A stretch of 64,000 bases of DNA from contig JAIOJX010000032.1 of the NCBI GenBank assembly GCA_022376925.1, positions 115,173,979-115,237,978 on the forward strand, in the 5' to 3' direction. Origin of the DNA: Tragulus kanchil (taxonomy: Eukaryota > Chordata > Mammalia > Artiodactyla > Tragulidae). This document shows positions 1,695-63,291 of this stretch, piece by piece. A program made the position numbers and the translations under genes. Below the pieces are notes generated by a model. That model did not search any database and was not told the DNA's origin. It saw only the letters and a program-made list of their open reading frames with translations. Within the stretch, counting starts at the first letter, position 1; each line of letters opens with the position of its first letter.

Positions 1695-3850
1695 TGTTCT
1701 ATTTCCTAATACAGTTATTCACATTTTACGTGTGTATTAGATACAGACAATATGAGAACTGTTTCAGTTAAAAAAACCTGGACCCTTGTGAGAGTTTCGA
1801 CTTCTGGCAGGTACTGATGAGATGGAGGTCCCTAAAGACGAAGGCTTTCACTCCACGCCACTGTGGGTGTCCCTCAGTTCCAGCAGGCCCTGTCCTGTGC
1901 TGGACTTCCCAGCACTCCGGGACATGCAGCTGCATCCAACTTGGGCCCTTTGCAGGCTTCCCGGACCCTGGCAGCTTGCTCCTGCACAGACTGCCACAGG
2001 GCCCGAATGTTGCCCTGGCCAAAGCCAGTGGCCCCCTGCCTCTGGATCAGCTCCAGGAAGAAAGTGTCCTCTGCAAAGAGGGGCTTCGTGAAGACCTGAA
2101 GTAGAAACTTGCCTCTGTCACCATCTAGCAAGACCCCCTGTCGGGCCAGCAGGCTCGGCTGGTGCCCAGCAGCCAGGATCTGCTCCTGCTTGCCTGGCTG
2201 CTGGTAGTAGGCCTCTGGAGGAGTCAGAAGCTGACCCCCGGCCCCTGCCACTCCTTCAGTGGCTTCCATGATACTTGGTGTGTACAACCCCACGTGCTGC
2301 AATCCAGGTCCTCTGTTCCCAGCCAGGAACTGCTCCACCTGGTCTTGACCGCTGGTGACCCTCGGCAGGGACTCTGCCAGCAGGAGGGTGGGGATAGTGC
2401 TGCCGGCAGGGCCCTGCAGGGCTGTGAGCCTCAGCCCCCCATGCCCAGCCCCTGCTGCCACCTCCAAGCCCAGCTCCGGATCCTCACCTGGGCTCAGCGG
2501 CATATGGCAAAAGCCTAGACAGTCGTGGAACCAGCGCATCAGTTTTGGGGAGCTTCTGGGGTTGCAGGCCAAGGTCAGATGATCCACATGGCTGAACCAG
2601 CCGGGTCCAGGTGCGGAGGACACAGGGCTAAAGCCAGGCAGGAAGGGCCCAGTGAAGCCAGTGCACTCCAGCAGTGTCAGACTGAGGTTGCCTGCCGGTG
2701 AACTGACCACGGTGTAGGTGGCGGCGCCTGCTCATCTTGCACTCTGACTGGGCACTGACTACCCGCAGGTGCTGCGGGCCCGCAGGCGCACTTGTTCTAT
2801 TTCCTAATACAGTTATTCACATTTTACGTGTGTATTAGATACAGACAATATGAGAACTGTTTCAGTTAAAAAAACCTGGACCCTTGTGAGAGTTTCGACT
2901 TCTGGCAGGTACTGATGAGATGGAGGTCCCTAAAGACGAAGGCTTTCACTCCACGCCACTGTGGGTGTCCTCAGTTCCAGCAGGCCCTGTCCTGTGCTGG
3001 ACTTCCCAGCACTCCGGGACATGCAGCTGCATCCAACTTGGGCCCTTTGCAGGCTTCCCGGACCCTGGCAGCTTGCTCCTGCACAGACTGCCACAGGGCC
3101 CGAATGTTGCCCTGGCCAAAGCCAGTGGCCCCCTGCCTCTGGATCAGCTCCAGGAAGAAAGTGTCCTCTGCAAAGAGGGGCTTCGTGAAGACCTGAAGTA
3201 GAAACTTGCCTCTGTCACCATCTAGCAAGACCCCCTGTCGGGCCAGCAGGCTCGGCTGGTGCCCAGCAGCCAGGATCTGCTCCTGCTTGCCTGGCTGCTG
3301 GTAGTAGGCCTCTGGAGGAGTCAGAAGCTGACCCCCGGCCCCTGCCACTCCTTCAGTGGCTTCCATGATACTTGGTGTGTACAACCCCACGTGCTGCAAT
3401 CCAGGTCCTCTGTTCCCAGCCAGGAACTGCTCCACCTGGTCTTGACCGCTGGTGACCCTCGGCAGGGACTCTGCCAGCAGGAGGGTGGGGATAGTGCTGC
3501 CGGCAGGGCCCTGCAGGGCTGTGAGCCTCAGCCCCCCATGCCCAGCCCCTGCTGCCACCTCCAAGCCCAGCTCCGGATCCTCACCTGGGCTCAGCGGCAT
3601 ATGGCAAAAGCCTAGACAGTCGTGGAACCAGCGCATCAGTTTTGGGGAGCTTCTGGGGTTGCAGGCCAAGGTCAGATGATCCACATGGCTGAACCAGCCG
3701 GGTCCAGGTGCGGAGGACACAGGGCTAAAGCCAGGCAGGAAGGGCCCAGTGAAGCCAGTGCACTCCAGCAGTGTCAGACTGAGGTTGCCTGCCGGTGAAC
3801 TGACCACGGTGTAGGTGGCGGCGCCCTGCTCATCTTGCACTCTGACTGGG
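1695..3850. repeat. Tandem duplication 1 (period ~1098), carries the HPDL 3' part
   Basis: Copy 1 is 1695-~2752 and copy 2 is 2793-~3850, separated by ~40 garbled bases. The copies are near-identical. Differences cluster at the block ends: GCGCC-TGC against GCGCCCTGC near 2730, a shortened G run near 2749, and GTCCTC against GTCCCTC at 2969, just inside copy 2. This looks like an unmerged contig overlap. Confidence 0.9.
1874..2710 (-). pseudogene. HPDL: Duplicated C-terminal part of HPDL (278 codons, no start region)
   Basis: This open frame is identical in protein sequence to the last 278 residues of the intact HPDL at 2971-4164. It includes both downstream metal ligands and the same stop. 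It lacks the first 119 residues, the promoter and the CpG island. Its frame is broken near 2728-2750 by single-base losses and then runs into unrelated filler before the second copy begins at 2793. There is no independent start context. It exists only because of tandem duplication 1 and is most likely an assembly duplicate, not a paralogue or natural pseudogene. Confidence 0.88.
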
Positions 3851-4164
3851 GGCACCTGCACGCTGCAGCCCAGCGCCGCCAGCGCGCGGGCGGCAGCTCC
3901 TGCATCGGCCACGTCGAAGCACAGGTTCGTGGCGCTCGATACCTCACGATGTGGGTCCAGGCCATACAGCGGCTCCCCGGGCCCGGCGCCCTCGTTCACC
4001 AAAAAGACCGCGTGGCCGCTGCGCAAAGCCAGCTGCCGCCAGCCGTCTGCTTCCCGCACCGCCAAGGGCTGGAAGCCGAAGAGGCGCTGCAGATCCCGGG
4101 CGAAGGGTAGCTCCGCCGGCACGTGGAAGGTGATATGGCACAGACGGCGGACGGGCGCGGCCAT
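2971..4164 (-). CDS. HPDL: HPDL, 4-hydroxyphenylpyruvate dioxygenase-like protein, single exon
   Basis: An uninterrupted 397-codon frame starts in a strong context (GCC-ATG-G) and matches mammalian HPDL along its length. Known of the family: a mitochondrial non-haem iron enzyme of the VOC (glyoxalase/HPPD) fold that converts 4-hydroxyphenylpyruvate to 4-hydroxymandelate for the coenzyme Q headgroup; human loss causes a neurodegenerative spastic disorder. Seen: an N-terminal VOC half (about residues 7-135) and a C-terminal half (about 158-340). The predicted 2-His-1-Glu iron ligands are present at H163 (VDHLTL), H258 (LQHVGL) and E339 (FFLEL), at the same numbering as human. Human HPDL is 371 residues and ends shortly after the EQ-ARxxEA block; here 26 more residues follow. 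The intronless structure agrees with human. It is convergent with MUTYH and expressed from the CpG island at its start. Confidence 0.96.
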
Positions 4165-4480: not shown

Positions 4481-5220
4481 TAGTTCGTCTTGTGTGGCCG
4501 AGAGTACACCGGAGACACCGGACTGCCCCCTCCCATGGCCTCTGGCTGGGCCTTACCCTTGGGCTCTGACCTTCCCATGCCTCTGGCTGGGCCACACATC
4601 CTTGGGCACCGAGCCTCCCTTCCCCCAACTGTTGCGATCACAATAGCTGCCTTCACTAGGTGCCAGGCACTGGGCTCTCATTCATGCCGCAACCTCAGAG
4701 CAAAGGGAATCAACTCTAGTTGGCAGAAGAGCCCGGATTTGCCCCCTCAAGCACGGAATTTCTTAGCAATTTCATGTCTTAAAATATTTGGAGAATTTTG
4801 CTTTTAAGTCCTAATGTTCCCTTAAAACTTAAAAACATAAAATGCTCTAAGTTACAAATTTTCACTCCTTCCCCAAAATAGTGCAGAGAAATTTATGTTA
4901 TATATAGACCATTTATATAGCTCCTACATGCACCTATCTTTGAGGAAATCTCTCAGCTGCACGGCTTTCTTTAACCCCACTTCTCTCTTACTATCCTTTA
5001 CCCTCCTGTCCCAAACAAGAATTGGAGAAAAAAAAAAAAAAAAGATGGCTCAGGATTTGAAAGGAACAGTTACACTGGTGTCCTTTCTCACCTTCCTGAG
5101 TCTATTAGGACTGAATAAGACCTCCCTGCTCTTTGCAACTTCCTGATTGGGTATGGGCAAGCTGAGCTTTCTGGGGCATTTGCAGTCTTGCCTCTCAGAG
5201 CTGTGTAAGATCCCTGGGTC
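4481..5220. other. Intergenic stretch upstream of HPDL
   Basis: About 4640-4735 resembles an antisense MIR (ctaggtgccaggcactggg followed by a cctcagag-type block). An A-rich run lies at 5029-5043. I see no gene; the short frames here have no recognisable protein. Confidence 0.4.
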
Positions 5221-7448
5221 CAGGTTCAGGAAATCAGGAGTCTTTTGGAGTTCACTTGGTAGCTCTTGAAGGAATGGGAAGGGCATTCCAAGAAGGGCAA
5301 ATAGCATAAGCAAAAGCTCAGGAAGGAGTGTGGGCTGAACCCATAGAGGAGCCATGGAGCATAAGGCTGGGATGGATGCTATGGTCTGAGGCATTGCAAA
5401 AGAGACTCCTTCATCAAGCAGCCTGTGACAGCTTACTGTTGAGTTTCATTGGCAAGAAGGAGAAGGATGTGATGAGGGGACAGGGCATAGAAAAAGGTCT
5501 GACTGAGTGTTCAGGCCTGTAGTCAGGAAGGCAGTTCCCAGAAGCTAGTCACTAATGGTGAAAGGCACTTTGTGCTACTCTGCACACGAGTGGATTTGAG
5601 AACCTGGGTTCCAGAAGCCAGACAGACCTGGGATAAAATTCACCTCAAAGGGGTGGGAGGGGGTAAAAACAAATAAAAATTCACCTCCGATACTTAATAC
5701 ACCTTTATAACTCTCGGCAAATTGCTTCTCTGAGCCTTAGTTTCTTCATCTGTAAAAATGGGAATGATAATAGCACCTTGTTCATGGGATTGTTATGATT
5801 AAATGAAATAGTACATGGTATAGTATATGGCAAGAGAAGCCAATTTTAGGCTGTGAACTTGGGCCTGACTGTGGGTTAAAGGGCTACTCCTCCCTAGGCC
5901 TGAGCATTGGGAAGGCTTTGGTGGTGGATTCTGGGGAAGAGACACTGGGAATAGGGCTCTGAGAGGGCTGGTACAGGATAGGCAATGTTCTGCCCTAGGT
6001 CTCATGATTAAGCCCCCAAGAGAGCAACTTTCAGGCCTTTGGTCCAAAAGGAATTTCCACTCAAGGGCCCCGGGTATGGGCAAAGGGGATAGAAACAGGA
6101 CTCCTGGCCCATTATTTTGACCCAGGGAAGGGTAGATTTCTGGAGGCTAAGTGAGGGCTGTCTGCAAGGGCACTGTGCTTGACTCTGGCCCAGGGCATAG
6201 ATTGGGGTCTTGAAGACCAGCTGGGAGTAGAGAACTAGACTCCACTTCCTGTAGCCCTGCTTGGCGTCTGGGCCATGACCAACGTAGGGCTCCTGTCCCC
6301 TGGCATAGCCCATTGTGGTCTGGGGGGGACGCCATGGCGAGGGTGCTTAGACTGGGCCCCCAGGTTCAGGAAATCAGGAGTCTTTTGGAGTTCACTTGGT
6401 AGCTCTTGAAGGAATGGGAAGGGCATTCCAAGAAGGGCAAATAGCATAAGCAAAAGCTCAGGAAGGAGTGTGGGCTGAACCCATAGAGGAGCCATGGAGC
6501 ATAAGGCTGGGATGGATGCTATGGTCTGAGGCATTGCAAAAGAGACTCCTTCATCAAGCAGCCTGTGACAGCTTACTGTTGAGTTTCATTGGCAAGAAGG
6601 AGAAGGATGTGATGAGGGGACAGGGCATAGAAAAAGGTCTGACTGAGTGTTCAGGCCTGTAGTCAGGAAGGCAGTTCCCAGAAGCTAGTCACTAATGGTG
6701 AAAGGCACTTTGTGCTACTCTGCACACGAGTGGATTTGAGAACCTGGGTTCCAGAAGCCAGACAGACCTGGGATAAAATTCACCTCAAAGGGGTGGGAGG
6801 GGGTAAAAACAAATAAAAATTCACCTCCGATACTTAATACACCTTTATAACTCTCGGCAAATTGCTTCTCTGAGCCTTAGTTTCTTCATCTGTAAAAATG
6901 GGAATGATAATAGCACCTTGTTCATGGGATTGTTATGATTAAATGAAATAGTACATGGTATAGTATATGGCAAGAGAAGCCAATTTTAGGCTGTGAACTT
7001 GGGCCTGACTGTGGGTTAAAGGGCTACTCCTCCCTAGGCCTGAGCATTGGGAAGGCTTTGGTGGTGGATTCTGGGGAAGAGACACTGGGAATAGGGCTCT
7101 GAGAGGGCTGGTACAGGATAGGCAATGTTCTGCCCTAGGTCTCATGATTAAGCCCCCAAGAGAGCAACTTTCAGGCCTTTGGTCCAAAAGGAATTTCCAC
7201 TCAAGGGCCCCGGGTATGGGCAAAGGGGATAGAAACAGGACTCCTGGCCCATTATTTTTGACCCATGGGAGGGTAGATTTCTGGAGGCTAAGTGAGGGCT
7301 GTCTGCAAGGGCACTGTGCTTGACTCTGGCCCAGGGCATAGATTGGGGTCTTGAAGACCAGCTGGGAGTAGAGAACTAGACTCCACTTCCTGTAGCCCTG
7401 CTTGGCGTCTGGGCCATGACCAACGTAGGGCTCCTGTCCCCCTGGCAT
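5221..7448. repeat. Tandem duplication 2 (period ~1140)
   Basis: Copy 1 is 5221-~6306 and copy 2 is 6361-~7448, separated by ~54 bases of unmatched filler containing a run of seven G. The copies match base for base over most of their length. The differences (TTATTTTGACCCAGGGAAGG against TTATTTTTGACCCATGGGAGG) lie within the last ~200 bases of copy 1. Confidence 0.92.
5590..5835 (+). mobile_element. MIR SINE (sense)
   Basis: The MIR core is clear: gagccttagtttcttcatctg, then aaaatgggaatgataatag, then a gggattgttatgattaaatg block. It is an ancient mammalian tRNA-derived SINE. The duplicate lies at about 6730-6975. Confidence 0.8.
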
Positions 7449-8480: not shown

Positions 8481-8688
8481 CGTAGCCTACCTCAGGGTTC
8501 CTGGTAGGTGACTTTTGAGTTAATTCCTGAAGGAAGTGAGGGAGCAAGAGGAACAAATGAAAGGCCCCGAAGCAGTAATGGGGCTGGTGTGCTGGAGCCA
8601 AGGGCCAGTGAAGCTGGAAAAAGATGGAGGAAGGGAGTCGTAGTAGCTTGTAGTCTGTTAGGACTTTGACTTTAAGTCTTAGCGAGCT

Positions 8689-8868
8689 GGGCTTCTCTGG
8701 TGGCTCAGATAGTGAAGAATCTGCCCGCGATTGGTACCCTGGAGAAGGGGATGGCAACCCAGTATCCTTTCCTGGAGAATTCCATCAACAGAGGAGCCTG
8801 GCGGTCTGCAGTCTTTGAGGTTACAAAGAATCAAGACAGGACTGAACAACTAACACTTTTCACTTTCC
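8689..8868 (+). mobile_element. BovB/ART2A-type 3' end with tRNA-like head
   Basis: A gggcttctctggtggctcag head is followed by the BovB-derived block ggagaattccatcaacagag...actgaacaactaacac. It interrupts an old repeat that resumes after it (gatagaaagtcattggaggg). The duplicate is at 9855-10035. Confidence 0.82.
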
Positions 8869-9267
8869 TAGCAAGATAGAAAGTCATTGGAGGGTTGAAG
8901 CTGAAGGCTTACTGATCAGGCTACATTTCCACTGAATCTTGCTGACTGCTGGGTTGATAATAAACTGGAGGGGTTTATTAAACTACAAATTGGCATTTAC
9001 CAATTACACCTCCAATGACTGAACAAGGGTATTTGCCATCTGCCTCTGACGCCTGGGCTGTGACAGCTGCTGACCTTCAACACCCCCTGAGGTTGTTCAG
9101 GGTAGAGTAGGCACTCTGTGCTCCAGGGAATCTGGTGGGGCAGGTCTTTAGATAGGTGGATGCTTTTAGGAACACATTTTATTATCTCAATCCTTGTTTC
9201 TCTAAATCTCTTCATCAGGTGACATTAGATCCTTATGACTAACCAAAAACCTTTTGTTACTGGTATT

Positions 9268-9533
9268 GTAGGCCATTCTCTTTTTTAACTTCATGCCACA
9301 AGCTCTTTCTTAGTTATTTATTATTTTCATCTATCTTTATTCTTTGACATGTGTGGGCCTCCCCTTGCAGTGGTCTCCTCGCAGCAGATGTGCCCAGAGC
9401 ACTGGCTCGCAGTTGGACACACCGGTCGTCCAGCCGCTCCACAGCACATGGGGTCTTCCCGGGCCAGGGATCGAACCGATGCCCCTTGCACTGCAAGGTG
9501 GAGTCTTTACCCACTGGACCACCAGAGAAGCCC
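9268..9533 (-). mobile_element. CpG-rich tRNA-derived SINE with extended 3' tail
   Basis: The insert is flanked by a 13-base target duplication TGTTACTGGTATT at 9255-9267 and 9534-9546. Read on the - strand it begins gggcttctctggtggtcc, has a B-box-like GGTTCGATCCC and the gatggatgaaaat block. It then continues ~45 bases beyond the usual A-rich end before the duplication, suggesting readthrough into a flank of the source copy. The duplicate is at 10434-10700. Confidence 0.85.
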
Positions 9534-10800
9534 TGTTACTGGTATTAATCTCCCCCTTCCTCAAAATCTTGTGTATTGATCTTCTTCCTGCTGCCTCCTT
9601 GGAGCAGTCTCTCAGAGCTATCTGAGGTGCTGTCTTCCGGGCTGCAATCCTAATTGTGCCTCAGGTAAAACTCAACTCACAACTCTCAAATTGTTCATCT
9701 TGTTAGTTGACAGGTGCAAGGGCAGAATGGGAGGCCAGTGAAGGGACTGTTGCTTCTGACATTGTCTGCAGGTCTAGGGAAGGCTTCCAGGGAAAGTTGA
9801 GACCAGAATTTTGAGTAGGAATTGACAAGGTGAGAAATATCATTATGTGTAGCTGGGCTTCTCTGGTGGCTCAGATAGTGAAGAATCTGCCCGCGATTGG
9901 TACCCTGGAGAAGGGGATGGCAACCCAGTATCCTTTCCTGGAGAATTCCATCAACAGAGGAGCCTGGCGGTCTGCAGTCTTTGAGGTTACAAAGAATCAA
10001 GACAGGACTGAACAACTAACACTTTTCACTTTCCTAGCAAGATAGAAAGTCATTGGAGGGTTGAAGCTGAAGGCTTACTGATCAGGCTACATTTCCACTG
10101 AATCTTGCTGACTGCTGGGTTGATAATAAACTGGAGGGGTTTATTAAACTACAAATTGGCATTTACCAATTACACCTCCAATGACTGAACAAGGGTATTT
10201 GCCATCTGCCTCTGACGCCTGGGCTGTGACAGCTGCTGACCTTCAACACCCCCTGAGGTTGTTCAGGGTAGAGTAGGCACTCTGTGCTCCAGGGAATCTG
10301 GTGGGGCAGGTCTTTAGATAGGTGGATGCTTTTAGGAACACATTTTATTATCTCAATCCTTGTTTCTCTAAATCTCTTCATCAGGTGACATTAGATCCTT
10401 ATGACTAACCAAAAACCTTTTGTTACTGGTATTGTAGGCCATTCTCTTTTTTAACTTCATGCCACAAGCTCTTTCTTAGTTATTTATTATTTTCATCTAT
10501 CTTTATTCTTTGACATGTGTGGGCCTCCCCTTGCAGTGGTCTCCCTCGCAGCAGATGTGCCCAGAGCACTGGCTCGCAGTTGGACACACCGGTCGTCCAG
10601 CCGCTCCACAGCACATGGGGTCTTCCCGGGCCAGGGATCGAACCGATGCCCCTTGCACTGCAAGGTGGAGTCTTTACCCACTGGACCACCAGAGAAGCCC
10701 TGTTACTGGTATTAATCTCCCCCTTCCTCAAAATCTTGTGTATTGATCTTCTTCCTGCTGCCTCCTTGGAGCAGTCTCTCAGAGCTATCTGAGGTGCTGT

Positions 10801-12975
10801 CTTCCGGGCTGCAATCCTAATTGTGCCTCAGGTAAAACTCAACTCACAACTCTCAAATTGTTCATCTTGTTAGTTGACAGGTGCAAGGGCAGAATGGGGA
10901 GGCCAGTGAAGGGACTGTTGCTTCTGACATTGTCTGCAGGTCTAGGGAAGGCTTCCAGGGAAAGTTGAGACCAGAATTTTGAGTAGGAATTGACAAGGTG
11001 AGAAATATCATTATGTGTTGGAGGTTGGGAGTAAAGTGCCCTAGGAGGAGAACACAGTTTACACAAAGGCCTAGGAGGTGAGAGAAAAGTGTAGTTGGTT
11101 GACATTTATTAGTACAATTAATCCTAGAACAACGTGAGTTTGAACTTTCAGGTGCTCTCATAAGGGTTTGTTTTTTTTTCTCTTTTTTCCCAGTAAATAT
11201 GTACTATTGTTCAATACCTAAGTTGTGTCTGACTCTGTCACCCCACGGATGGAGGCATATCAGGCTTCCCTATCCTTTGTCATTTCCTGGAGTTTGTTCT
11301 TCCCATATCCATTGAGTCGATGATGCTGTCTAACCATCTCATCCTCTGTTGTCCTCTTTTCCTCCTGCCTTCGATCTTTCCCAGCATCAGGATTTTTTCC
11401 AATGAGTTAGTTCTTTGCATCAGGAGCCAAAGTATTGGAGCTTCATCTTTAGCAGCAGTCCTTCCAATGAGTATTCAAGGTTGATTTCCTTTAGGATTGA
11501 CTGGTTTTGATCTCCTTGCTGTCCAAGGGACTCTCGAGAGTCTTCCAGCATCACAGTTCAAAAGCATAAGTTCTTTGGCGCGCAGCCTTCCGTATGGTCC
11601 AACTCTCACGTCCGTACATGACTACGGGAAAAGTCATAGCTTTGACTATACAGACTTTTTAATACACTAAGTTTGTCACAGCTTTTCTTCCAAGGAGCAA
11701 GTCTTTTACTTTCATGACTGCAGTCACTGTCCACAGTGATTTTGGAACCCAAGAAAATAAAATCTGCCACTGTGTCCATTTTTCCCCCATCTATTTGCCA
11801 TAGAGTGAAGGGAACAGATGTCATGGTCTTAGTTATTTCTTTTTTAAGTTTTTTGAATATTGACGTCAGCTTTTTTTCATCTCAGACAAGGTCCTTCCGG
11901 GCTGCAATCCTAATTGTGCCTCAGGTAAAACTCAACTCACAACTCTCAAATTGTTCATCTTGTTAGTTGACAGGTGCAAGGGCAGAATGGGAGGCCAGTG
12001 AAGGGACTGTTGCTTCTGACATTGTCTGCAGGTCTAGGGAAGGCTTCCAGGGAAAGTTGAGACCAGAATTTTGAGTAGGAATTGACAAGGTGAGAAATAT
12101 CATTATGTGTTGGAGGTTGGGAGTAAAGTGCCCTAGGAGGAGAACACAGTTTACACAAAGGCCTAGGAGGTGAGAGAAAAGTGTAGTTGGTTGACATTTA
12201 TTAGTACAATTAATCCTAGAACAACGTGAGTTTGAACTTTCAGGTGCTCTCATAAGGGTTTGTTTTTTTTTCTCTTTTTTCCCAGTAAATATGTACTATT
12301 GTTCAATACCTAAGTTGTGTCTGACTCTGTCACCCCACGGATGGAGGCATATCAGGCTTCCCTATCCTTTGTCATTTCCTGGAGTTTGTTCTTCCCATAT
12401 CCATTGAGTCGATGATGCTGTCTAACCATCTCATCCTCTGTTGTCCTCTTTTCCTCCTGCCTTCGATCTTTCCCAGCATCAGGATTTTTTCCAATGAGTT
12501 AGTTCTTTGCATCAGGAGCCAAAGTATTGGAGCTTCATCTTTAGCAGCAGTCCTTCCAATGAGTATTCAAGGTTGATTTCCTTTAGGATTGACTGGTTTT
12601 GATCTCCTTGCTGTCCAAGGGACTCTCGAGAGTCTTCCAGCATCACAGTTCAAAAGCATAAGTTCTTTGGCGCGCAGCCTTCCGTATGGTCCAACTCTCA
12701 CGTCCGTACATGACTACGGGAAAAGTCATAGCTTTGACTATACAGACTTTTTAATACACTAAGTTTGTCACAGCTTTTCTTCCAAGGAGCAAGTCTTTTA
12801 CTTTCATGACTGCAGTCACTGTCCACAGTGATTTTGGAACCCAAGAAAATAAAATCTGCCACTGTGTCCATTTTTCCCCCATCTATTTGCCATAGAGTGA
12901 AGGGAACAGATGTCATGGTCTTAGTTATTTCTTTTTTTTTTTAAGTTTTTTTGAATATTGACGTCAGCTTTTTCA
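10801..12975. repeat. Tandem duplication 4 (period ~1093)
   Basis: Copy 1 is 10801-~11873 and copy 2 is 11894-~12975, with under 20 bases of filler. At the end of copy 1 a T run has 6 T where copy 2 has 10, and a second run is one T shorter. The G run GGGGA at 10895 is GGGA near the start of copy 2 (11985). Confidence 0.92.
11112..11203 (+). mobile_element. Left part of a Tigger-like DNA transposon remnant
   Basis: Resembles the left end of a Tigger/TcMar nonautonomous element (attaatcctagaacaacgtg, gagtttgaact, then cagtaaatatgtactat). The matching right part (ctgaaccacagatatggagg, gttgttcaagggtta) lies at 16395-16550, so the BovB cluster sits inside this element. The second copy of the left part is at 12204-12298. 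Confidence 0.55.
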
Positions 12976-19505: not shown

Positions 19506-19708
19506 ACTAGTTATAAAAATTATTTATCAAATTAGTTATATACATTATTATATGGATATATAAATTACATAAAATTTCACTGTATATTGTTTGAAATAAA
19601 ATTGAAATATATGAAAACCCTAAATGAAAAGTAAAATTCTTACACTGATTACCCTGCAGAAGTAACCACTATGAAGAGCTTCTTATGTATCCATGTTAAG
19701 TATTTTCT

Positions 19709-19835: not shown

Positions 19836-19953
19836 CATGTTAAGTATTTTCTATTCATGTATACAAGCATATATATGGCTATACTTTTTTCTTGATAAAT
19901 CCAGTCTTAGGTATGTACCCATTTCAATGCATATCAATCTAACATGTTCTTTT

Positions 19954-32058: not shown

Positions 32059-32070
32059 CTGGAATCTTTT

Positions 32071-50778: not shown

Positions 50779-51127
50779 AAAAATCTTTATTTATTTATTT
50801 ATTTTTGGCTGCGCTGGGTCTTCATTGCTGCCCCAGGGTCTTTCTCTAGTTGCGGTGAGCAGGGGCTATTCTTCCTTGCGATGTGCTGATTCTCATTGCA
50901 GTGGCTTCTCTTGTTGTGGAGCAGGGGCTGTAGGCATGCTGGCTTTAGTATTACGACACTCAGGCTCAGTACTTGTGGCTCCCAGGCTCTAGAGCTTGGG
51001 CTTGGTAACTGTGGCACAGGGGCTCAGTTACCCCATAGCATGTGGAATCTTCCTGGACCAGTGATCAAACCTGTGTCCCCTGCATTGGCAGGCAGACTCC
51101 CATCCACTGCTTTAGTAGGGAAGTCCT
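50779..51127 (-). mobile_element. Bov-tA2-type SINE (antisense)
   Basis: tttatttttggctgcgctgg, ctctagttgcggtgagcag, gcttctcttgttgtggagc and gcattggcaggcagactcc, ending at the head tagtagggaagtcc. The duplicate is at 51857-52205. Confidence 0.85.
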
Positions 51128-51556
51128 CATTTTCTTATATTTGCAGTTTTTGTGTACTTTTTCTAGCTGGCAAACAACACTTTGTTCTTAAAGTCCTGTA
51201 CCTTATGGGCTCTATCTTTTATATTTAAAAATAATTTTGATCAGTGGATTTGTAATTTATGCTCTGAATGTAAAATGTTTTAAAACATAATATATAAAAT
51301 GTAATAATCTTGAACAAAATTATATACAAGTTTATGTGCTTAATCCAACAAAAAAGAATTTCATATTTAATACATTTTTCCAAATGTCTGGTTAAGAAAC
51401 ACACTCTCTTATTTACATATTTCTTGGGAATTTGCAAGTCTGACTTTCAGGCTCAATCAGTTCTCTGATCTAGAGGAAGGGCATTATAGGCAAAAGATGA
51501 AGCAAAATACCTGTTACTGTGCCTCTGCTTCATTAGACCCTTAAAAGAGACTGATC

Positions 51557-51680
51557 TAGGACTTCCCTGGTGGTCCAGTGGCTAAGACTCTACACTCCCA
51601 GTGCAGAGGGCTCAGGTTCAGTCCCTGGTCAGAGAAACAGATACCACATGCTGCAACTAAGACCTAGTACAGTCAAAAAA
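51557..51680 (+). mobile_element. CHR-1-like SINE (sense)
   Basis: taggacttccctggtggtcc, gtggctaagactctacac and gttcagtccctggtcagag. It appears again at 52635-52757, and its distal part again at 53797-53882, through chained duplications 17 and 18. Confidence 0.85.
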
Positions 51681-52670
51681 AAATCCACGTGAGTCTTTCC
51701 CAAGCAATATGATAAGCATCAGGCGGGCACAGAATTCTGCATTCTGTAGGGCAGTGGCTTGAACAATCTGTATTTGGATATTAAAGAGTAACCCCAGCAG
51801 GCTGGAGAACTTAGGGTGGATGTCAAGAGGACATTGTCTCTCTCTCTTTTCTATTTAAAAATCTTTATTTATTTATTTATTTTTGGCTGCGCTGGGTCTT
51901 CATTGCTGCCCCAGGGTCTTTCTCTAGTTGCGGTGAGCAGGGGCTATTCTTCCTTGCGATGTGCTGATTCTCATTGCAGTGGCTTCTCTTGTTGTGGAGC
52001 AGGGGCTGTAGGCATGCTGGCTTTAGTATTACGACACTCAGGCTCAGTACTTGTGGCTCCCAGGCTCTAGAGCTTGGGCTTGGTAACTGTGGCACAGGGG
52101 CTCAGTTACCCCATAGCATGTGGAATCTTCCTGGACCAGTGATCAAACCTGTGTCCCCTGCATTGGCAGGCAGACTCCCATCCACTGCTTTAGTAGGGAA
52201 GTCCTCATTTTCTTATATTTGCAGTTTTTGTGTACTTTTTCTAGCTGGCAAACAACACTTTGTTCTTAAAGTCCTGTACCTTATGGGCTCTATCTTTTAT
52301 ATTTAAAAATAATTTTGATCAGTGGATTTGTAATTTATGCTCTGAATGTAAAATGTTTTAAAACATAATATATAAAATGTAATAATCTTGAACAAAATTA
52401 TATACAAGTTTATGTGCTTAATCCAACAAAAAAGAATTTCATATTTAATACATTTTTCCAAATGTCTGGTTAAGAAACACACTCTCTTATTTACATATTT
52501 CTTGGGAATTTGCAAGTCTGACTTTCAGGCTCAATCAGTTCTCTGATCTAGAGGAAGGGCATTATAGGCAAAAGATGAAGCAAAATACCTGTTACTGTGC
52601 CTCTGCTTCATTAGACCCTTAAAAGAGACTGATCTAGGACTTCCCTGGTGGTCCAGTGGCTAAGACTCTA

Positions 52671-54909
52671 CACTCCCAGTGCAGAGGGCTCAGGTTCAGT
52701 CCCTGGTCAGAGAAACAGATACCACATGCTGCAACTAAGACCTAGTACAGTCAAATAGAGTGAGAAAGACTGATCCATCCAGGCTGTGTGCTCCATCAGT
52801 TGTAAACCAGTGTGTTCTCCACATCCTCCATCCCCTCCATTCTCTATCCGATTTGTCTTCCCTGTTTTTTTTTTTTGTTGTTGTTGTTGTTGTTGTTAAT
52901 ATTTTTTAGATAATGGACTATTTTTAAGGTCCTCATTGAATTTGTTACAGTATTGCTTCTGATTTGTTTTGGGGGGGGCCCCATGGCATATGGGGTCTTA
53001 GCTCCCTAACTAAGGATCAAACCCACACCCTCTGCACTGGAAGGTGAAGTCTTAACCACTGGTCCACCAGGGAAGTCCCCTGTCCTTCCTGTTCAATTTG
53101 GACATACCAGCAACCACTCTCATTTCTCTGGCCCTGGACTCTTTTTCAGTCTTTAATGTCATGAAATGAGTAAGTAGCATGTATCAAGTAGACAGAATGT
53201 TCAGAGCTCAGATGGGACATCTAGGTTAGAAACATAAATTTAAGTTATTGATATACAGCTAGTTATCAAAGATATGGGTATGGATGAAATTGTGTAGAGA
53301 GAAGAAAGTTGAATGAGAAAGACAGTAAAATAAATATATTGACAGTCCAGAGATATTGGGAAGTTTAGTTTAGCTGTGTGCCCAGGAAGAAGAAGTTGGT
53401 TTGGTGACCAGCTAGCAATCTCTGCTATAGGGGGAGAAGTTAAAGATGCAGGAAATGAGGTGGGGGGTTGAAGAAGGGGGTACTAAAAAGAGTGAGCTTT
53501 CTTAGAAAACAAGAAAGCAAGTAGAAACTAGGCTCGAGAGCCCGTGAGAGTAATTTTTTTTTCCCCCAGCCAGATCACGGGGGCAGGGAGGCCAAGGATA
53601 TTTGCAAAAGAATGATCATAAAGACAGACCATGTTTAAGGTATTAAGGAAGGTGCTGATGGACAGAATGGAGCAAAGCCAGTAAGTTGGAGACCCTGATA
53701 AGGCCAAGAATGACTTCCATATGGATTCATAAGCAAATAAACTGGAATGAGAGGGCACTGTGGTGTTTGCCTTTCAAGAAGGGATGTCTGATGATCCACT
53801 CCCAGTGCAGAGGGCTCAGGTTCAGTCCCTGGTCAGAGAAACAGATACCACATGCTGCAACTAAGACCTAGTACAGTCAAATAGAGTGAGAAAGACTGAT
53901 CCATCCAGGCTGTGTGCTCCATCAGTTGTAAACCAGTGTGTTCTCCACATCCTCCATCCCCTCCATTCTCTATCCGATTTGTCTTCCCTGTTTTTTTTTT
54001 TGTTGTTGTTGTTGTTGTTAATATTTTTTAGATAATGGACTATTTTTAAGGTCCTCATTGAATTTGTTACAGTATTGCTTCTGATTTGTTTTGGGGGGGC
54101 CCCATGGCATATGGGGTCTTAGCTCCCTAACTAAGGATCAAACCCACACCCTCTGCACTGGAAGGTGAAGTCTTAACCACTGGTCCACCAGGGAAGTCCC
54201 CTGTCCTTCCTGTTCAATTTGGACATACCAGCAACCACTCTCATTTCTCTGGCCCTGGACTCTTTTTCAGTCTTTAATGTCATGAAATGAGTAAGTAGCA
54301 TGTATCAAGTAGACAGAATGTTCAGAGCTCAGATGGGACATCTAGGTTAGAAACATAAATTTAAGTTATTGATATACAGCTAGTTATCAAAGATATGGGT
54401 ATGGATGAAATTGTGTAGAGAGAAGAAAGTTGAATGAGAAAGACAGTAAAATAAATATATTGACAGTCCAGAGATATTGGGAAGTTTAGTTTAGCTGTGT
54501 GCCCAGGAAGAAGAAGTTGGTTTGGTGACCAGCTAGCAATCTCTGCTATAGGGGGAGAAGTTAAAGATGCAGGAAATGAGGTGGGGGGTTGAAGAAGGGG
54601 GTACTAAAAAGAGTGAGCTTTCTTAGAAAACAAGAAAGCAAGTAGAAACTAGGCTCGAGAGCCCGTGAGAGTAATTTTTTTTTCCCCCAGCCAGATCACG
54701 GGGGCAGGGAGGCCAAGGATATTTGCAAAAGAATGATCATAAAGACAGACCATGTTTAAGGTATTAAGGAAGGTGCTGATGGACAGAATGGAGCAAAGCC
54801 AGTAAGTTGGAGACCCTGATAAGGCCAAGAATGACTTCCATATGGATTCATAAGCAAATAAACTGGAATGAGAGGGCACTGTGGTGTTTGCCCTTTCAAG
54901 AAGGAGATG
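52671..54909. repeat. Tandem duplication 18 (period ~1126)
   Basis: Copy 1 is 52671-~53790 and copy 2 is 53797-~54909. Near the start of copy 2, (GTT) has 6 units against 7 and a G run has 7 against 8. The tail of copy 1 (aagaagggatgtctga) is a corrupted form of aagaaggagatgtttgaac. Confidence 0.93.
52967..53081 (-). mobile_element. CHR-type SINE fragment (antisense)
   Basis: ccatggcatatggggtcttag through taaccactggtccaccaggg. The duplicate is at 54092-54198. The DNA from 53082 to 53790 carries no gene or repeat I can name. Confidence 0.78.
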
Positions 54910-55207
54910 TTTGAACAAGTCATTTAGGATGTGATTGGATTCTGATGATGACAAGGTCCATACTGTAACCATGGACATGGGGAGGCTGAGATGGAATGAA
55001 GAAAATAGTCATTGACAGTGAGGAAGCCAAGGAAACCAAGAGCCCAGGACATTTGAAAGTTTAGCTGTGTGAGTACTGGTACCACCCAGAAGGATAATAG
55101 GAATTTCAGAGGAGGACTGCTCATGCCTAAGAAACTGGGTAGTTTTGTGGGGAGTAGAAGATGGTGGTAAACCTAGATGAGCTGAAACTTTGAAGGCACA
55201 TAATTTA

Positions 55208-55460
55208 AAAAAAAAATATTTTGGCCTCTTTTTTGGTCTTTAAATTTATTTATTTTCATCCTTCCAATTTATTTAGTTTGTTCTCTCTCGTTGCAGAGCA
55301 CCTGCTCTGGGCGCATGTGCTCCAGAGTACTGGCTCGTAATTGGGCACACCAGTCTGGCCACTCTGCAGCATGTGGGATCTTCCCAGGCCAGAGATTGAA
55401 CCAGCGCCCCTTGCAGTGCAAGGCGGACTCTTCACCCACTAGACCACCAGGGAAGTCCCC
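55208..55460 (-). mobile_element. CpG-rich-type SINE (antisense), abutting another SINE
   Basis: Tail at 55208, tRNA head ending accagggaagtccc. Immediately followed by a second antisense SINE (55461-55670). CATAATTT words occur on the left of the first, between the two, and on the right of the second, so both may have used nearly the same target. Duplicates are at 56305-56555 and 56556-56766. Confidence 0.85.
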
Positions 55461-55670
55461 CATAATTTTTATTTTATTTTATTTTTTGGCTGTGCTGAGT
55501 CTTCATTGTGTCACAAGGGCCCTTCATTGCTGTGAGCAGGCTTCTCTATTTGTGGTGCTTGGGCTTAGTTACCCTGTGGCATGTGGGGTCTTAGATTCCC
55601 GACCAGGGACTGAACCTGTATCCCCTGCATTGGAAGGTGAATTATTAATCGTTGGAAGAGCAGGAAAGTT
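55461..55670 (-). mobile_element. CHR/Bov-tA-type SINE (antisense)
   Basis: tattttttggctgtgctgag, gttaccctgtggcatgtgg and gcattggaaggtgaattatt, ending aagagcaggaaagttccc. Flanked by CATAATTTTT on both sides. Confidence 0.82.
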
Positions 55671-56888
55671 CCCATAATTTTTCTTTTACAAGAAGGAGAC
55701 GTAGTAAAATTCTATAAGTTAAACGTGGTAGGGAGAAGGACACTGATTCCACCTTCCAGTTTTCAGTAGATGAAAAGTTGGAGAGGAAGCTCTGACGGGG
55801 CAGGGAGGCCAAGGATATTTGCAAAAGAATGATCATAAAGACAGACCATGTTTAAGGTATTAAGGAAGGTGCTGATGGACAGAATGGAGCAAAGCCAGTA
55901 AGTTGGAGACCCTGATAAGGCCAAGAATGACTTCCATATGGATTCATAAGCAAATAAACTGGAATGAGAGGGCACTGTGGTGTTTGCCCTTTCAAGAAGG
56001 AGATGTTTGAACAAGTCATTTAGGATGTGATTGGATTCTGATGATGACAAGGTCCATACTGTAACCATGGACATGGGGAGGCTGAGATGGAATGAAGAAA
56101 ATAGTCATTGACAGTGAGGAAGCCAAGGAAACCAAGAGCCCAGGACATTTGAAAGTTTAGCTGTGTGAGTACTGGTACCACCCAGAAGGATAATAGGAAT
56201 TTCAGAGGAGGACTGCTCATGCCTAAGAAACTGGGTAGTTTTGTGGGGAGTAGAAGATGGTGGTAAACCTAGATGAGCTGAAACTTTGAAGGCACATAAT
56301 TTAAAAAAAAAATATTTTGGCCTCTTTTTTGGTCTTTAAATTTATTTATTTTCATCCTTCCAATTTATTTAGTTTGTTCTCTCTCGTTGCAGAGCACCTG
56401 CTCTGGGCGCATGTGCTCCAGAGTACTGGCTCGTAATTGGGCACACCAGTCTGGCCACTCTGCAGCATGTGGGATCTTCCCAGGCCAGAGATTGAACCAG
56501 CGCCTTGCAGTGCAAGGCGGACTCTTCACCCACTAGACCACCAGGGAAGTCCCCCATAATTTTTATTTTATTTTATTTTTTGGCTGTGCTGAGTCTTCAT
56601 TGTGTCACAAGGGCCCTTCATTGCTGTGAGCAGGCTTCTCTATTTGTGGTGCTTGGGCTTAGTTACCCTGTGGCATGTGGGGTCTTAGATTCCCGACCAG
56701 GGACTGAACCTGTATCCCCTGCATTGGAAGGTGAATTATTAATCGTTGGAAGAGCAGGAAAGTTCCCATAATTTTTCTTTTACAAGAAGGAGACGTAGTA
56801 AAATTCTATAAGTTAAACGTGGTAGGGAGAAGGACACTGATTCCACCTTCCAGTTTTCAGTAGATGAAAAGTTGGAGAGGAAGCTCTG

Positions 56889-57400
56889 TCTGGTGAGGGG
56901 GTAGGGTGAGGAGGGAGGGATGTAGTGAAGCCAGGCTTCAGTTTAGGCAAAAGATAGGGGTTCCAGTCTAAGAAAAGCCTGAGGATGTTGGTATCTAAGG
57001 GAATTTACCAGTTTCAGAATTGAAGTTCAAGAGGATACGAATGAATGACTGGGGAGCAGGGCCTAGAAGGAATGCTGGGTCAGTTGAGAGGGTATCAGGA
57101 ACAGATGAGGAGAGTCACAAAGCTCAGATGACCCTTTTGAACAGGACTTGTCCTGAGAGTTCTTTGGGGAAAGAGGTACACACTGGCCAAGCATAGTTGG
57201 GTGCCTTCTTGTGGTGATCTGGCAATAATACCGTACTGTGGCCCCTGCAGCTTCACAATGGGAGGACAGCACACAGAGGAAGGTTAGATGCCTCAGGGCG
57301 TCTGCCCCCAGGTTCACGTGGCACAGCCACTGAGACCCAGAGCCCGACTCACGGGGGCCTTTTAGAGCCTCCATCCTCGCATGTTCTTCTCTGCTGTCTC
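56889..57400. other. Unrecognised stretch
   Basis: The G-rich tract at 56889-56930 is followed by sequence without identifiable repeats or coding potential. The - strand frame 57063-57374 has no recognisable protein. The part from 57039 is duplicated at 58135. Confidence 0.35.
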
Positions 57401-57650
57401 TTATTCATCCTTCAAATCTTGACTAAAGCATCCCTCCTTTGGGTACACCCCAGGCTCCCCTATTATTCTCTCTCATCAGGTTGTGTGCTTTTCCTTCACA
57501 GAGCTTATCATAGTTGTAATTTTGCAGTTATTTGCGTGCTCATTTAATTAAAGCTGCTCTCCTTCACTTGCCTGTAAATTCCACAAGGGTCATGTCTATT
57601 TGATACACATGGAAGTATTATTCTAATACTTGCATATAGTAGGTGTGACA
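57400..57650 (+). mobile_element. L2-like LINE 3' end
   Basis: cttcacagagcttatcatag, cctgtaaattccacaaggg and catatagtaggtg follow the usual L2 3'-end order. The duplicate is at 58495-58742. Confidence 0.65.
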
Positions 57651-58986
57651 GTTTTTTAAAATATCCACAAATGCTTTGACACTCCCTTTTTCAAGGCAGA
57701 AATCTAATTTTCCTTCTCTTGATGTTGACCAGACTTAATGACTTGCTTCTAACAAATAGAATCTGATGGAAGTGACAGTATATGACACCTGAGGTTATAG
57801 AAGAGAACAGCTTCCTCCTGGTGCTTTCTTGTTCTTGGATCACTTGCTCAGAGAAAACCAGGGCATGTTGTGAGATCATTCAAGAAACACTGGGAGGGAT
57901 TTCCCTGGTGGTCCAGAGGCTAAGGTTCTGTGCTCCCAGTGCGGGGGCCTGGGTTTGATCCTGGTCAGGGAACTATATTCCACATGCTACAACTAAAGAT
58001 CCCAAGTGCCACAATTAAGACTCAGCACAGCCAAATAAATAATCATTTTTAAAAAGAAACACCATGGTAACACTCACACGGAGTGGAATTGAGGCCTTCT
58101 ACCAGTAGCCAGGATCTAGTATTCTGACATGGGAGAATGAATGACTGGGGAGCAGGGCCTAGAAGGAATGCTGGGTCAGTTGAGGGTATCAGGAACAGAT
58201 GAGGAGAGTCACAAAGCTCAGATGACCCTTTTGAACAGGACTTGTCCTGAGAGTTCTTTGGGGAAAGAGGTACACACTGGCCAAGCATAGTTGGGTGCCT
58301 TCTTGTGGTGATCTGGCAATAATACCGTACTGTGGCCCCTGCAGCTTCACAATGGGAGGACAGCACACAGAGGAAGGTTAGATGCCTCAGGGCGTCTGCC
58401 CCCAGGTTCACGTGGCACAGCCACTGAGACCCAGAGCCCGACTCACGGGGGCCTTTTAGAGCCTCCATCCTCGCATGTTCTTCTCTGCTGTCTCTTATTC
58501 ATCCTTCAAATCTTGACTAAAGCATCCCTCCTTTGGGTACACCCCAGGCTCCCCTATTATTCTCTCTCATCAGGTTGTGTGCTTTTCCTTCACAGAGCTT
58601 ATCATAGTTGTAATTTTGCAGTTATTTGCGTGCTCATTTAATTAAAGCTGCTCTCCTTCACTTGCCTGTAAATTCCACAAGGGTCATGTCTATTTGATAC
58701 ACATGGAAGTATTATTCTAATACTTGCATATAGTAGGTGTGACAGTTTTTTAAAATATCCACAAATGCTTTGACACTCCCTTTTTCAAGGCAGAAATCTA
58801 ATTTTCCTTCTCTTGATGTTGACCAGACTTAATGACTTGCTTCTAACAAATAGAATCTGATGGAAGTGACAGTATATGACACCTGAGGTTATAGAAAGAG
58901 AACAGCTTCCTCCTGGTGCTTTCTTGTTCTTGGATCACTTGCTCAGAGAAAACCAGGGCATGTTGTGAGATCATTCAAGAAACACT

Positions 58987-59146
58987 GGGAGGGATTTCCC
59001 TGGTGGTCCAGAGGCTAAGGTTCTGTGCTCCCAGTGCGGGGGGCCTGGGTTTGATCCCTGGTCAGGGAACTATATTCCACATGCTACAACTAAAGATCCC
59101 AAGTGCCACAATTAAGACTCAGCACAGCCAAATAAATAATCATTTT
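58987..59146 (+). mobile_element. CHR-1-like SINE inserted in the MLT1 LTR
   Basis: gagggatttccctggtggtcc to agcacagccaaataaataatc. Also present at 57894-58048 and 60138-60297 through chained duplications. This interior copy has the longest G and C runs and is the best consensus. Confidence 0.85.
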
Positions 59147-59261
59147 TTAAAAAAAGAAACACCATGGTAAGACTCACACGGAGAGGAATTGAGGCCTTCT
59201 ACCAGTAGCCAGGATCTAGTATTCTGTCATGGGAGAAAAAGGCCTTTCTTTCCTTTTTTTA

Positions 59262-59584
59262 ATTTTAATTTTTATTATTTATTTATTTATCTTTTGGGGG
59301 GTGGGGTGGGAGGGAGGGGATGGGCGGGCCACTTCCATTGGTCTTTCATTTTTCTGTTTTCATCCGTCTTTGTTCTTTGGCTCCTGTGGGCCTCCCATCG
59401 CAGTGGCCTCTGTCGTCACAGAGCGCCGGCTCTGGGCGCATGCGCTCCAGAGCTCGGGCTCGGCAATTGGACACATCAGTCCAGCCACTCCGCGGCACGT
59501 GGGATCTTCCCAGGCCAGGGATCAAACCGGCGCCCCTTGCACTGCAAGGCAGTGTCCTTACCCACTGGACCACCAGGGAAAACC
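59262..59584 (-). mobile_element. CpG-rich tRNA-derived SINE (antisense)
   Basis: Flanked by CTTTCTTTCCTTTTTT on both sides (59244-, 59586-). Head at right, palindromic GCGCATGCGC core intact. The duplicate is at 60407-60731. Confidence 0.88.
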
Positions 59585-59659
59585 CTCTTTCTTTCCTTTT
59601 TTTTTTTTTTTTAATTAAAACTTATTATTTTGTATTGGGGTATAGCCTATTAACTGGGT

Positions 59660-59795
59660 TGGGAAGATCCCCTGGAAGAGGAAATGGCAACCTGCTCCAG
59701 TATCCTTGCCTGGAAAATCCCACGGACAGAGGATCCTGGAGGGCTACAGTCCATGTGGTTCCAAAGAGTCAGACACAACTTAGTGGCTAAACAAT
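59660..59795 (+). mobile_element. BovB 3' end (sense), followed by a second fragment
   Basis: gggttgggaagatcccctgg, ctccagtatccttgcctgg and gagtcagacacaacttag. A further BovB terminus fragment lies at 59990-60050 (cagtcccatagggttgcaaag). Duplicates are at 60806-60942 and 61138-61196. Confidence 0.83.
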
Positions 59796-60946
59796 AACAG
59801 CTCTATAGCATGCATTGTGCTGATTCTTGGTAGGCACAGACAGAATGTTCCATATAAGTCATAAGTTTTGTATAGTAAGGAAACTTCTTTTACCTCAAAG
59901 TTTAGCAAGGAGTTAAACTTCCTGATTAAAAAAATAAAATGCAAATTATTTATAAGCAACTGAGAATTCTTTGAATCCTGATGCAATAATTTCAGTCCCA
60001 TAGGGTTGCAAAGAGTTGAACACCACTGAGTGACTGAGCCCACAAGCATAGCTAAACAGCCTTGGTGCTTTCTTGTTCTTGGATCACTTGCTCAGAGAAA
60101 ACCAGGGCATGTTGTGAGATCATTCAAGAAACACTGGGAGGGATTTCCTGGTGGTCCAGAGGCTAAGGTTCTGTGCTCCCAGTGCGGGGCCTGGGTTTGA
60201 TCCTGGTCAGGGAACTATATTCCACATGCTACAACTAAAGATCCCAAGTGCCACAATTAAGACTCAGCACAGCCAAATAAATAATCATTTTTTAAAAAAA
60301 GAAACACCATGGTAACACTCACACGGAGAGGAATTGAGGCCTTCTACCAGTAGCCAGGATCTAGTATTCTGTCATGGGAGAAAAAGGCCTTTCTTTCCTT
60401 TTTTTAATTTTAATTTTTATTATTTATTTATTTATCTTTTGGGGGGTGGGGTGGGGAGGGAGGGGGATGGGCGGGCCACTTCCATTGGTCTTTCATTTTT
60501 CTGTTTTCATCCGTCTTTGTTCTTTGGCTCCTGTGGGCCTCCCATCGCAGTGGCCTCTGTCGTCACAGAGCGCCGGCTCTGGGCGCATGCGCTCCAGAGC
60601 TCCGGCTCGGTAATTGGACACATCAGTCCAGCCACTCCGCGGCACGTGGGATCTTCCCAGGCCAGGGATCAAACCGGCGCCCCTTGCACTGCAAGGCAGT
60701 GTCCTTACCCACTGGACCACCAGGGAAAACCCTCTTTCTTTCCTTTTTTTTTTTTTTTAATTAAAACTTATTATTTTGTATTGGGGTATAGCCTATTAAC
60801 TGGGTTGGGAAGATCCCCTGGAAGAGGAAATGGCAACCTGCTCCAGTATCCTTGCCTGGAAAATCCCACGGACAGAGGATCCTGGAGGGCTACAGTCCAT
60901 GTGGTTCCAAAGAGTCAGACACAACTTAGTGGCTAAACAATAACAG

Positions 60947-63291
60947 CTCTATAGCATGCATTGTGCTGATTCTTGGTAGGCACAGACAGAATGTTCCATA
61001 TAAGTCATAAGTTTTGTATAGTAAGGAAACTTCTTTTACCTCAAAGTTTAGCAAGGAGTTAAACTTCCTGATTAAAAAAATAAAATGCAAATTATTTATA
61101 AGCAACTGAGAATTCTTTGAATCCTGATGCAATAATTTCAGTCCCATAGGGTTGCAAAGAGTTGAACACCACTGAGTGACTGAGCCCACAAGCATAGCTG
61201 ATAAACAGCATTGTGATAGTTTCAAGTGAACAGCGAATGGACTCAGCCATGCATACATATGTAACCATTTTCCCCCAAACTCCCCTTCCATCCAACATTA
61301 AGCAGAGTTCCCTGTGCTATACAGTGAGACCTTGGTGGTTATCCATTTTATTCATTTTGAATATAGCAGGGTGTCCATGTTGATCCCAAACTTCGTAACT
61401 ATCCCTTCACCCCATTGGAGGGTAGCACCTTAAAAGTGGATCCTCAAGCCCCAGTCAAGCCCTCAGATAGCTACAGCTCTGACTGGCATCTAACTGTAAT
61501 CTCATGAGGGAATCTGGGCCAAAACCACTGTGACACGTTGCTTGCTGTGAGAGATAATAAATGATAATCAGTATTGGTTTAAGCATCCAAGTTCTGGGGT
61601 AATTTGTAATGTAACAATAGATAACTAATATAACAGGTTTTTAAACAAATATTTACTGAATGAAAAAATCACCAAATTTATGAATACCTTTTTTTCCCCT
61701 GGTTTGGCGTAAATCAATAATTAGATCAGTAATAATTCTAATAGGTGCCTGAAACTTGCTATTGCCTCTTCTCTGCATTTCACTTTATATATAGACTTTT
61801 TCACCCTTATGAGTGGGAGGAAAAAATAAGAAGAAGTCAGCAAAACTACTTAACCCCCTCCCATTTTTAAAAAATACTTATCCCTTAAAGATTGCATATA
61901 TCTGAGTGGTTTAAGTATAAGGAAAGATTAATTACATTTGCTCTTCTGTTACACACTACCAAAGATTGGTTGGCATAAAAGTAAAACTGACAAGGTAGAA
62001 TTCTTTTTTTTTTTTTAACTATTTTTTAAAAAACCTGTGCTGCGTCTTAGTTGTGGCATGTGGGATCTTTAGTTACAGATGTAGATTCTCAATTAGGGTA
62101 TATGGGACCTAGTTCCTCTATAGCATGCATTGTGCTGGTTCTTGGTAGGCACAGACAGAATGTTCCATATAAGTCATAAGTTTTGTATAGTAAGGAAACT
62201 TCTTTTACCTCAAAGTTTAGCAAGGAGTTAAACTTCCTGATTAAAAAAATAAAATGCAAATTATTTATAAGCAACTGAGAATTCTTTGAATCCTGATGCA
62301 ATAATTTCAGTCCCATAGGGTTGCAAAGAGTTGAACACCACTGAGTGACTGAGCCCACAAGCATAGCTGATAAACAGCATTGTGATAGTTTCAAGTGAAC
62401 AGCGAATGGACTCAGCCATGCATACATATGTAACCATTTTCCCCCAAACTCCCCTTCCATCCAACATTAAGCAGAGTTCCCTGTGCTATACAGTGAGACC
62501 TTGGTGGTTATCCATTTTATTCATTTTGAATATAGCAGGGTGTCCATGTTGATCCCAAACTTCGTAACTATCCCTTCACCCCATTGGAGGGTAGCACCTT
62601 AAAAGTGGATCCTCAAGCCCCAGTCAAGCCCTCAGATAGCTACAGCTCTGACTGGCATCTAACTGTAATCTCATGAGGGAATCTGGGCCAAAACCACTGT
62701 GACACGTTGCTTGCTGTGAGAGATAATAAATGATAATCAGTATTGGTTTAAGCATCCAAGTTCTGGGGTAATTTGTAATGTAACAATAGATAACTAATAT
62801 AACAGGTTTTTAAACAAATATTTACTGAATGAAAAAATCACCAAATTTATGAATACCTTTTTTTCCCCTGGTTTGGCGTAAATCAATAATTAGATCAGTA
62901 ATAATTCTAATAGGTGCCTGAAACTTGCTATTGCCTCTTCTCTGCATTTCACTTTATATATAGACTTTTTCACCCTTATGAGTGGGAGGAAAAAATAAGA
63001 AGAAGTCAGCAAAACTACTTAACCCCCTCCCATTTTTAAAAAATACTTATCCCTTAAAGATTGCATATATCTGAGTGGTTTAAGTATAAGGAAAGATTAA
63101 TTACATTTGCTCTTCTGTTACACACTACCAAAGATTGGTTGGCATAAAAGTAAAACTGACAAGGTAGAATTCTTTTTTTTTTTTTAACTATTTTTTTTTT
63201 AAAAAAAACCTGTGCTGCGTCTTAGTTGTGGCATGTGGGATCTTTAGTTACAGATGTAGATTCTCAATTAGGGTATATGGGACCTAGTTCC
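60947..63291. repeat. Tandem duplication 22 (period 1169), seamless
   Basis: Copy 1 is 60947-62115 and copy 2 is 62116-~63291. Differences: TTCTTGG context gctgatt against gctggtt at the start of copy 2, and shorter T and A runs near 62020 than near 63190. Confidence 0.93.
61208..61425 (-). mobile_element. L1 3'-UTR fragment (antisense)
   Basis: catatgtaaccattttccccc, ccctgtgctatacagtgag, atagcagggtgtccatgttg. This is the standard ruminant L1 region. The duplicate is at 62377-62594. From 61641 to 62030 (again 62810-63198) the DNA is AT-rich with nothing identifiable. Confidence 0.7.

Follow-up and report, generated by a model that had tools for sequence, protein, structure and literature searches.

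The stretch of the Tragulus kanchil assembly analyzed here (GCA_022376925.1, contig JAIOJX010000032.1, positions 115,173,979 to 115,237,978; 64,000 nucleotides, below called the window) contains 22 places at which about 1.1 kb of DNA stands next to a nearly identical copy of itself. The duplications are present in the sequence file, and the small differences between the copies have a distinctive type, place and direction. From these features we consider it very probable (about 0.95) that the duplications arose as an artefact of assembly, whichever software was used, in which overlapping units were set end to end and their common sequence left unmerged. They would then be absent from the animal.

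The window was compared with itself using BLAST, and all direct pairs that reach 500 bp and 95% identity were collected, whatever their distance. Exactly 22 are found, each formed by adjacent copies, with identities of 98.3-100%. The period of the pairs lies between 1007 and 1207 bp (mean 1116, standard deviation 42), and the length of the overlap, measured on the first copy, between 1001 and 1212 bp (mean 1101, median 1084, standard deviation 48), with one of the 22 falling below 1024 bp. The two copies are separated by 1-53 bases at 17 junctions and by none at one, and at four the aligned copies overlap by 1-5 bases. No inverted pair in the window reaches 300 bp at 95% identity, and the sole match found in a mononucleotide-shuffled control window (n = 1) is that with itself. 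The window contains no Ns.

A sequence-only reading of the window had described 22 direct tandem repeats of about 1.1 kb with near-identical copies, and these are recovered by self-BLAST at the places that it named. The periods that it gave are the same at 19 of the 22 junctions, while the values for junctions 7, 8 and 12 are corrected to 1110 (not 1112), 1122 (not 1123) and 1139 (not 1130). It had also described the duplicated content of the sites as mutually unrelated. If the repeat classes it assigned are left aside, this agrees with the absence of any 500-bp stretch at 95% identity common to two different sites. The junctions, which carry no strand, are as follows, in window coordinates.

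Junction 1, 1695..3850: copies 1695-2752 and 2793-3850, spacer 40
Junction 2, 5220..7448: copies 5220-6306 and 6360-7448, spacer 53
Junction 3, 8685..11018: copies 8685-9850 and 9851-11018, spacer 0
Junction 4, 10801..12973: copies 10801-11875 and 11894-12973, spacer 18; 218 bp in common with junction 3 copy 2
Junction 5, 14326..16498: copies 14326-15405 and 15422-16498, spacer 16
Junction 6, 19327..21662: copies 19327-20488 and 20502-21662, spacer 13
Junction 7, 22314..24509: copies 22314-23392 and 23424-24509, spacer 31
Junction 8, 24449..26648: copies 24449-25525 and 25571-26648, spacer 45; 61 bp in common with junction 7 copy 2
Junction 9, 26533..28725: copies 26533-27613 and 27634-28725, spacer 20; 116 bp in common with junction 8 copy 2
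Junction 10, 29258..31669: copies 29258-30469 and 30465-31669, overlapping by 5
Junction 11, 32062..34210: copies 32062-33137 and 33139-34210, spacer 1
Junction 12, 34408..36664: copies 34408-35537 and 35547-36664, spacer 9
Junction 13, 36297..38449: copies 36297-37360 and 37383-38449, spacer 22; 368 bp in common with junction 12 copy 2
Junction 14, 38336..40566: copies 38336-39443 and 39459-40566, 100% identical, spacer 15; 114 bp in common with junction 13 copy 2
Junction 15, 42024..44036: copies 42024-43024 and 43031-44036, spacer 6
Junction 16, 44015..46181: copies 44015-45081 and 45115-46181, spacer 33; 22 bp in common with junction 15 copy 2
Junction 17, 50609..52755: copies 50609-51677 and 51687-52755, 100% identical, spacer 9
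Junction 18, 52671..54914: copies 52671-53791 and 53797-54914, spacer 5; 85 bp in common with junction 17 copy 2
Junction 19, 54701..56888: copies 54701-55794 and 55797-56888, spacer 2; 214 bp in common with junction 18 copy 2
Junction 20, 57039..59237: copies 57039-58137 and 58135-59237, overlapping by 3
Junction 21, 58914..61213: copies 58914-60064 and 60063-61213, overlapping by 2; 324 bp in common with junction 20 copy 2
Junction 22, 60947..63291: copies 60947-62116 and 62116-63291, overlapping by 1; 267 bp in common with junction 21 copy 2

Together the duplicated zones cover 46,668 of the 64,000 bases (73%), and in 10 of the 21 pairs of neighboring junctions the zones run into each other, copy 2 of the earlier junction having 22-368 bp in common with copy 1 of the later. 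Removal of one period at each site leaves 39,446 of the 64,000 bases.

The differences between the copies are informative as to their origin. Over the 24,227 first-copy bases of the 22 pairs there are 64 insertions or deletions (indels, totaling 112 bases) as against 35 substitutions, and of these 64 indels 39 lengthen or shorten a single-letter run. Substitutions dominate in DNA that has diverged by mutation, and the excess of indels found here is the reverse of that pattern. Two of the 22 pairs have no difference whatever. When the overlaps are divided into successive tenths the 99 differences are distributed as 29, 11, 2, 5, 7, 2, 2, 3, 9 and 29, so that the outer tenths hold 58 of the 99 (binomial p about 4e-17 under uniform placement, for a division into tenths that was chosen after the difference data were known). 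Near the 5' end of junction 5 lie ten substitutions within 63 bp, the densest substitution cluster among the 22 pairs; it looks like the start of a poorly built unit.

The indels are also directional. Of 20 indels in the 5' fifth of the overlaps 18 leave copy 2 short of bases, of 28 in the 3' fifth 23 leave copy 1 short, and those in the middle are split 8 and 8. Fisher's test of direction gives p = 8.6e-7, a value that is too strong because neither the indels of a single junction nor those of the 10 shared zones are independent of one another. The fifths, like the tenths, were set with the data known. A count by junction end is safer, yet still includes the shared zones; 26 ends have an indel, and 21 of these fit the direction, 4 oppose it and 1 is tied (p = 0.0009). 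In two overlapping consensus pieces joined without merging, the left piece would finish at the 3' end of copy 1 and the right piece would open with the 5' end of copy 2. Unit ends that are poor and short of bases would therefore leave copy 1 short near its 3' end and copy 2 short near its 5' end, and this is what is observed.

All this would be expected if the window had been built from successive assembly units that overlap. At 22 places the program would have failed to align and merge neighboring units where they meet, and with the unmerged units placed end to end the common stretch of about 1.1 kb would appear twice. The two meeting ends, that of the left unit and that of the right, would be of poor quality and base-short, and would persist as differences between the copies, and perhaps as the spacers. 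The sequence-only reading had proposed an artefact of assembly or gap filling, and the type, position and direction of the differences support that proposal.

We have weighed two explanations of another nature. The copies might be the two parental haplotypes placed in tandem, termed a heterotype false duplication, and one survey names this kind as the chief contributor among the false duplications of its assemblies (PMC9516828). Haplotypes should differ mostly by substitutions spread along the copies. Here there are 35 substitutions in 24,227 bases, ten of them in the one 63-bp stretch of junction 5, two pairs are identical, more than half of the differences lie in the outer tenths, and a sequence-based test over the 22 pairs finds no haplotype-like spread of substitutions. 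Haplotype duplicates are rejected because the differences are few, mostly indels and clustered at the ends, and we regard this explanation as very unlikely.

The second is that the tandem duplications are real, generated by some unknown process able to duplicate about 1.1 kb on the spot, whatever the sequence. The duplications do stand in the sequence file, and the file by itself could not distinguish them from real ones. Yet indels exceed substitutions, 73% of the window would have to be recently duplicated with part of a gene doubled, and the loss of bases at the unit ends runs the way that unmerged overlaps would lead one to expect. We know of no reason why real duplications should give such directional loss, and it is on the direction of the missing bases that biological tandem duplication is rejected, as extremely improbable. 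It is scarcely credible that a germline or somatic process would duplicate about 1.1 kb at many unrelated sites and lose bases at the ends of the new copies.

Given unmerged overlaps, the lengths involved bear on the software. The blocks between junctions measure 1814-6563 bp, in keeping with the 1.8-6.6 kb read from the sequence earlier. None of the 21 is under 1.8 kb, and 8 lie at 1.95-2.15 kb, about twice 1024. The smallest junction-to-junction step on the collapsed map is 750 bp. The longest stretch between two duplicated zones, 46182-50608, lies within the 6.56 kb block. By default wtdbg2 uses nodes of length 1024 made up of 256-bp bins, and an overlap of 256 between neighboring nodes is allowed. 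The consensus step of wtdbg joins successive units that share a node, and in the consensus program of wtdbg2 the overlap between adjacent units can be set by a parameter. An overlap of nearly constant length, together with blocks that cluster near 2.05 kb, suggests units with a graph node of about 1 kb in common; the node length lies near the observed overlap, though below its mean, and the shortest units are about two nodes long, as expected for wtdbg. The block sizes fit units made of two neighboring nodes of about 1 kb, one of them common with the next unit, and the longer blocks would be units that were merged correctly. Within the artefact reading, the maker was probably a long-read assembler of the wtdbg or wtdbg2 kind, or a near relative, with successive consensus units that would share one node. 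As described in PMC10989838, wtdbg2 chops reads into 1024-bp segments and merges similar ones into a vertex, the vertices being linked by read adjacency. Three further papers name wtpoa-cns as the separate consensus program of wtdbg2 (PMC12037172) and give runs with node lengths of 1536 (PMC11931762) and 2304 (PMC7831173), both multiples of 256.

The same artefact might, less probably, have come from other software, either a tiling path of reads or small contigs, selected to overlap by no less than about 1 kb and then concatenated untrimmed, or a gap filler that pasted in reads together with their anchoring ends. The overlaps begin just above 1000 bp, and the blocks and steps have no 256-bp periodicity. 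Homotype duplications are reported near contig boundaries, with one example due to a FALCON bug (PMC8081667), and incorrect gap filling is a named cause of depth gaps at false duplicates (PMC9516828). The absence of Ns is not evidence against gap filling, because a filled gap has none. Tiling of reads leaves unexplained both the 8 blocks of 21 at 1.95-2.15 kb and the narrow spread of the overlaps (standard deviation 48 bp). We consider these two routes, taken jointly, to be possible but doubtful.

Degraded unit ends might be visible in the spacers, of which 13 of the 22 junctions have one of at least 9 bases. Local alignment of these with the sequence following copy 2 is significant at p < 0.05 in 4 of 13 (junctions 1, 2, 9 and 16), and with the sequence preceding copy 1 in 1 of 13. 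Under a model that combines the tail of the left unit and the head of the right unit, 4 of 13 spacers (junctions 2, 4, 9 and 16) are significant at p < 0.05, and the combined Fisher p is 0.0035. In the reverse-complement control on the upstream side the spacer scores higher in 5, equal in 2 and lower in 6. The clearest case is junction 9, where 19 of the 20 spacer bases align to sequence that begins 8 bases past the end of copy 2, three of whose bases are absent from the spacer. In these weak and mixed results a few spacers, that of junction 9 above all, look like degraded unit ends.

A number of observations weigh against unmerged overlaps or against wtdbg as their source. Nine of the 13 spacers have no significant source in the combined tail and head model, and the reverse-complement control on the downstream side, while lower than the spacer in 8 of 13, exceeds it in 5, including junction 1. 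Edge-anchored alignment of the 15 spacers of at least 5 bases is significant in 1 of 15 as left tail and in 0 of 15 as right head. The indels run opposite to the expected direction at 4 of the 26 ends, namely 5' in junctions 7 and 13 and 3' in junctions 5 and 11. The artefact reading itself is a strong inference from the sequence. As to wtdbg, the overlaps have a median of 1084 and a mean of 1101, which is 6-8% over a node of 1024 and would need deletion-prone raw reads or ragged node ends. Unlike the bins of wtdbg2, the blocks and steps give no sign of a 256-bp period (Rayleigh p 0.37 for 21 blocks and 0.67 for 21 steps), in a test whose power is low because the values are few and consensus length differs from raw-read length. 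Without that spacing we do not class the window as a proven wtdbg product. A literature search, in which candidates were mostly judged by their listing, found no report of such a failure for wtdbg.

The artefact would have consequences for the gene content of the window. HPDL (4-hydroxyphenylpyruvate dioxygenase-like) is present whole once, together with a partial frame made by junction 1.

2971..4164, minus strand: HPDL open reading frame of 397 aa, 85% identical to camel HPDL and 84% to the pig protein
1874..2710, minus strand: headless partial copy of HPDL, a 278-aa frame, 100% identical in alignment to the C-terminal part of 2971-4164

A Pfam scan assigns the complete frame to the glyoxalase/dioxygenase superfamily (E 1.4e-06) and finds no family in the partial frame. 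The best match of the complete frame is P0001, at 87% identity, among the best 120 of 321 matches listed, with scoring limited to the 7995 candidates sharing most words. Camel and pig are the nearest named matches, and on this ground the animal would probably be an even-toed ungulate. The frame extends 26 residues past the C-terminus of camel HPDL (371 aa) and past the end of the pig protein, and this extension is mostly common to P0001 (390 aa).

Duplication through shared repeats was also considered as a possible source. Apart from the junction pairs, the self-matches listed (less than 8 kb apart and more than 200 bp) are confined to repeats some 320 bp long, with 85-91% identity between pairs. 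With junction-made copies omitted they lie at 18330-18651, 21679-22005, 27191-27513, 29452-29786, 59275-59586 and 63488-63804, and these six may belong to a single family. We take the repeat to be probably an element of the short interspersed (SINE) type. Three short patterns of ungulate SINEs have 11, 2 and 0 exact matches, the last being the one typical of ruminants.

If the duplications are an artefact, 24,554 of the 64,000 bases (38%) are surplus. This is a warning on the assembly, in which genes, regulatory DNA and repeats would be partly doubled. The partial neighbor of HPDL could be miscalled as a pseudogene or as a gain of a gene. The combination of a near-constant overlap, an excess of indels over substitutions and a loss of bases directed to the unit ends provides a fingerprint by which unmerged overlaps could be separated from real duplications in a reference-free manner.

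False duplications have been measured in three earlier assemblies and their Vertebrate Genomes Project (VGP) counterparts, in a study that traces depth gaps between the false duplicates in part to incorrect gap filling (PMC9516828). Homotype false duplications, as described in PMC8081667, occur near contig boundaries or derive from under-collapsed sequence, with lengths near that of the reads and a gap between the copies; the example due to the FALCON bug is in a hummingbird assembly. The window resembles these in having one locus twice in tandem, with 22 adjacent near-identical pairs, differences of the kind produced by consensus quality, bases missing at the unit ends, and no haplotype-like pattern. 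It differs in that its units are only 1.8-6.6 kb long, the duplicated length is nearly constant, there is no N gap between the copies, and 22 events occur in 64 kb. We conclude that in anatomy the window would be a homotype false duplication, of a denser and more regular form.

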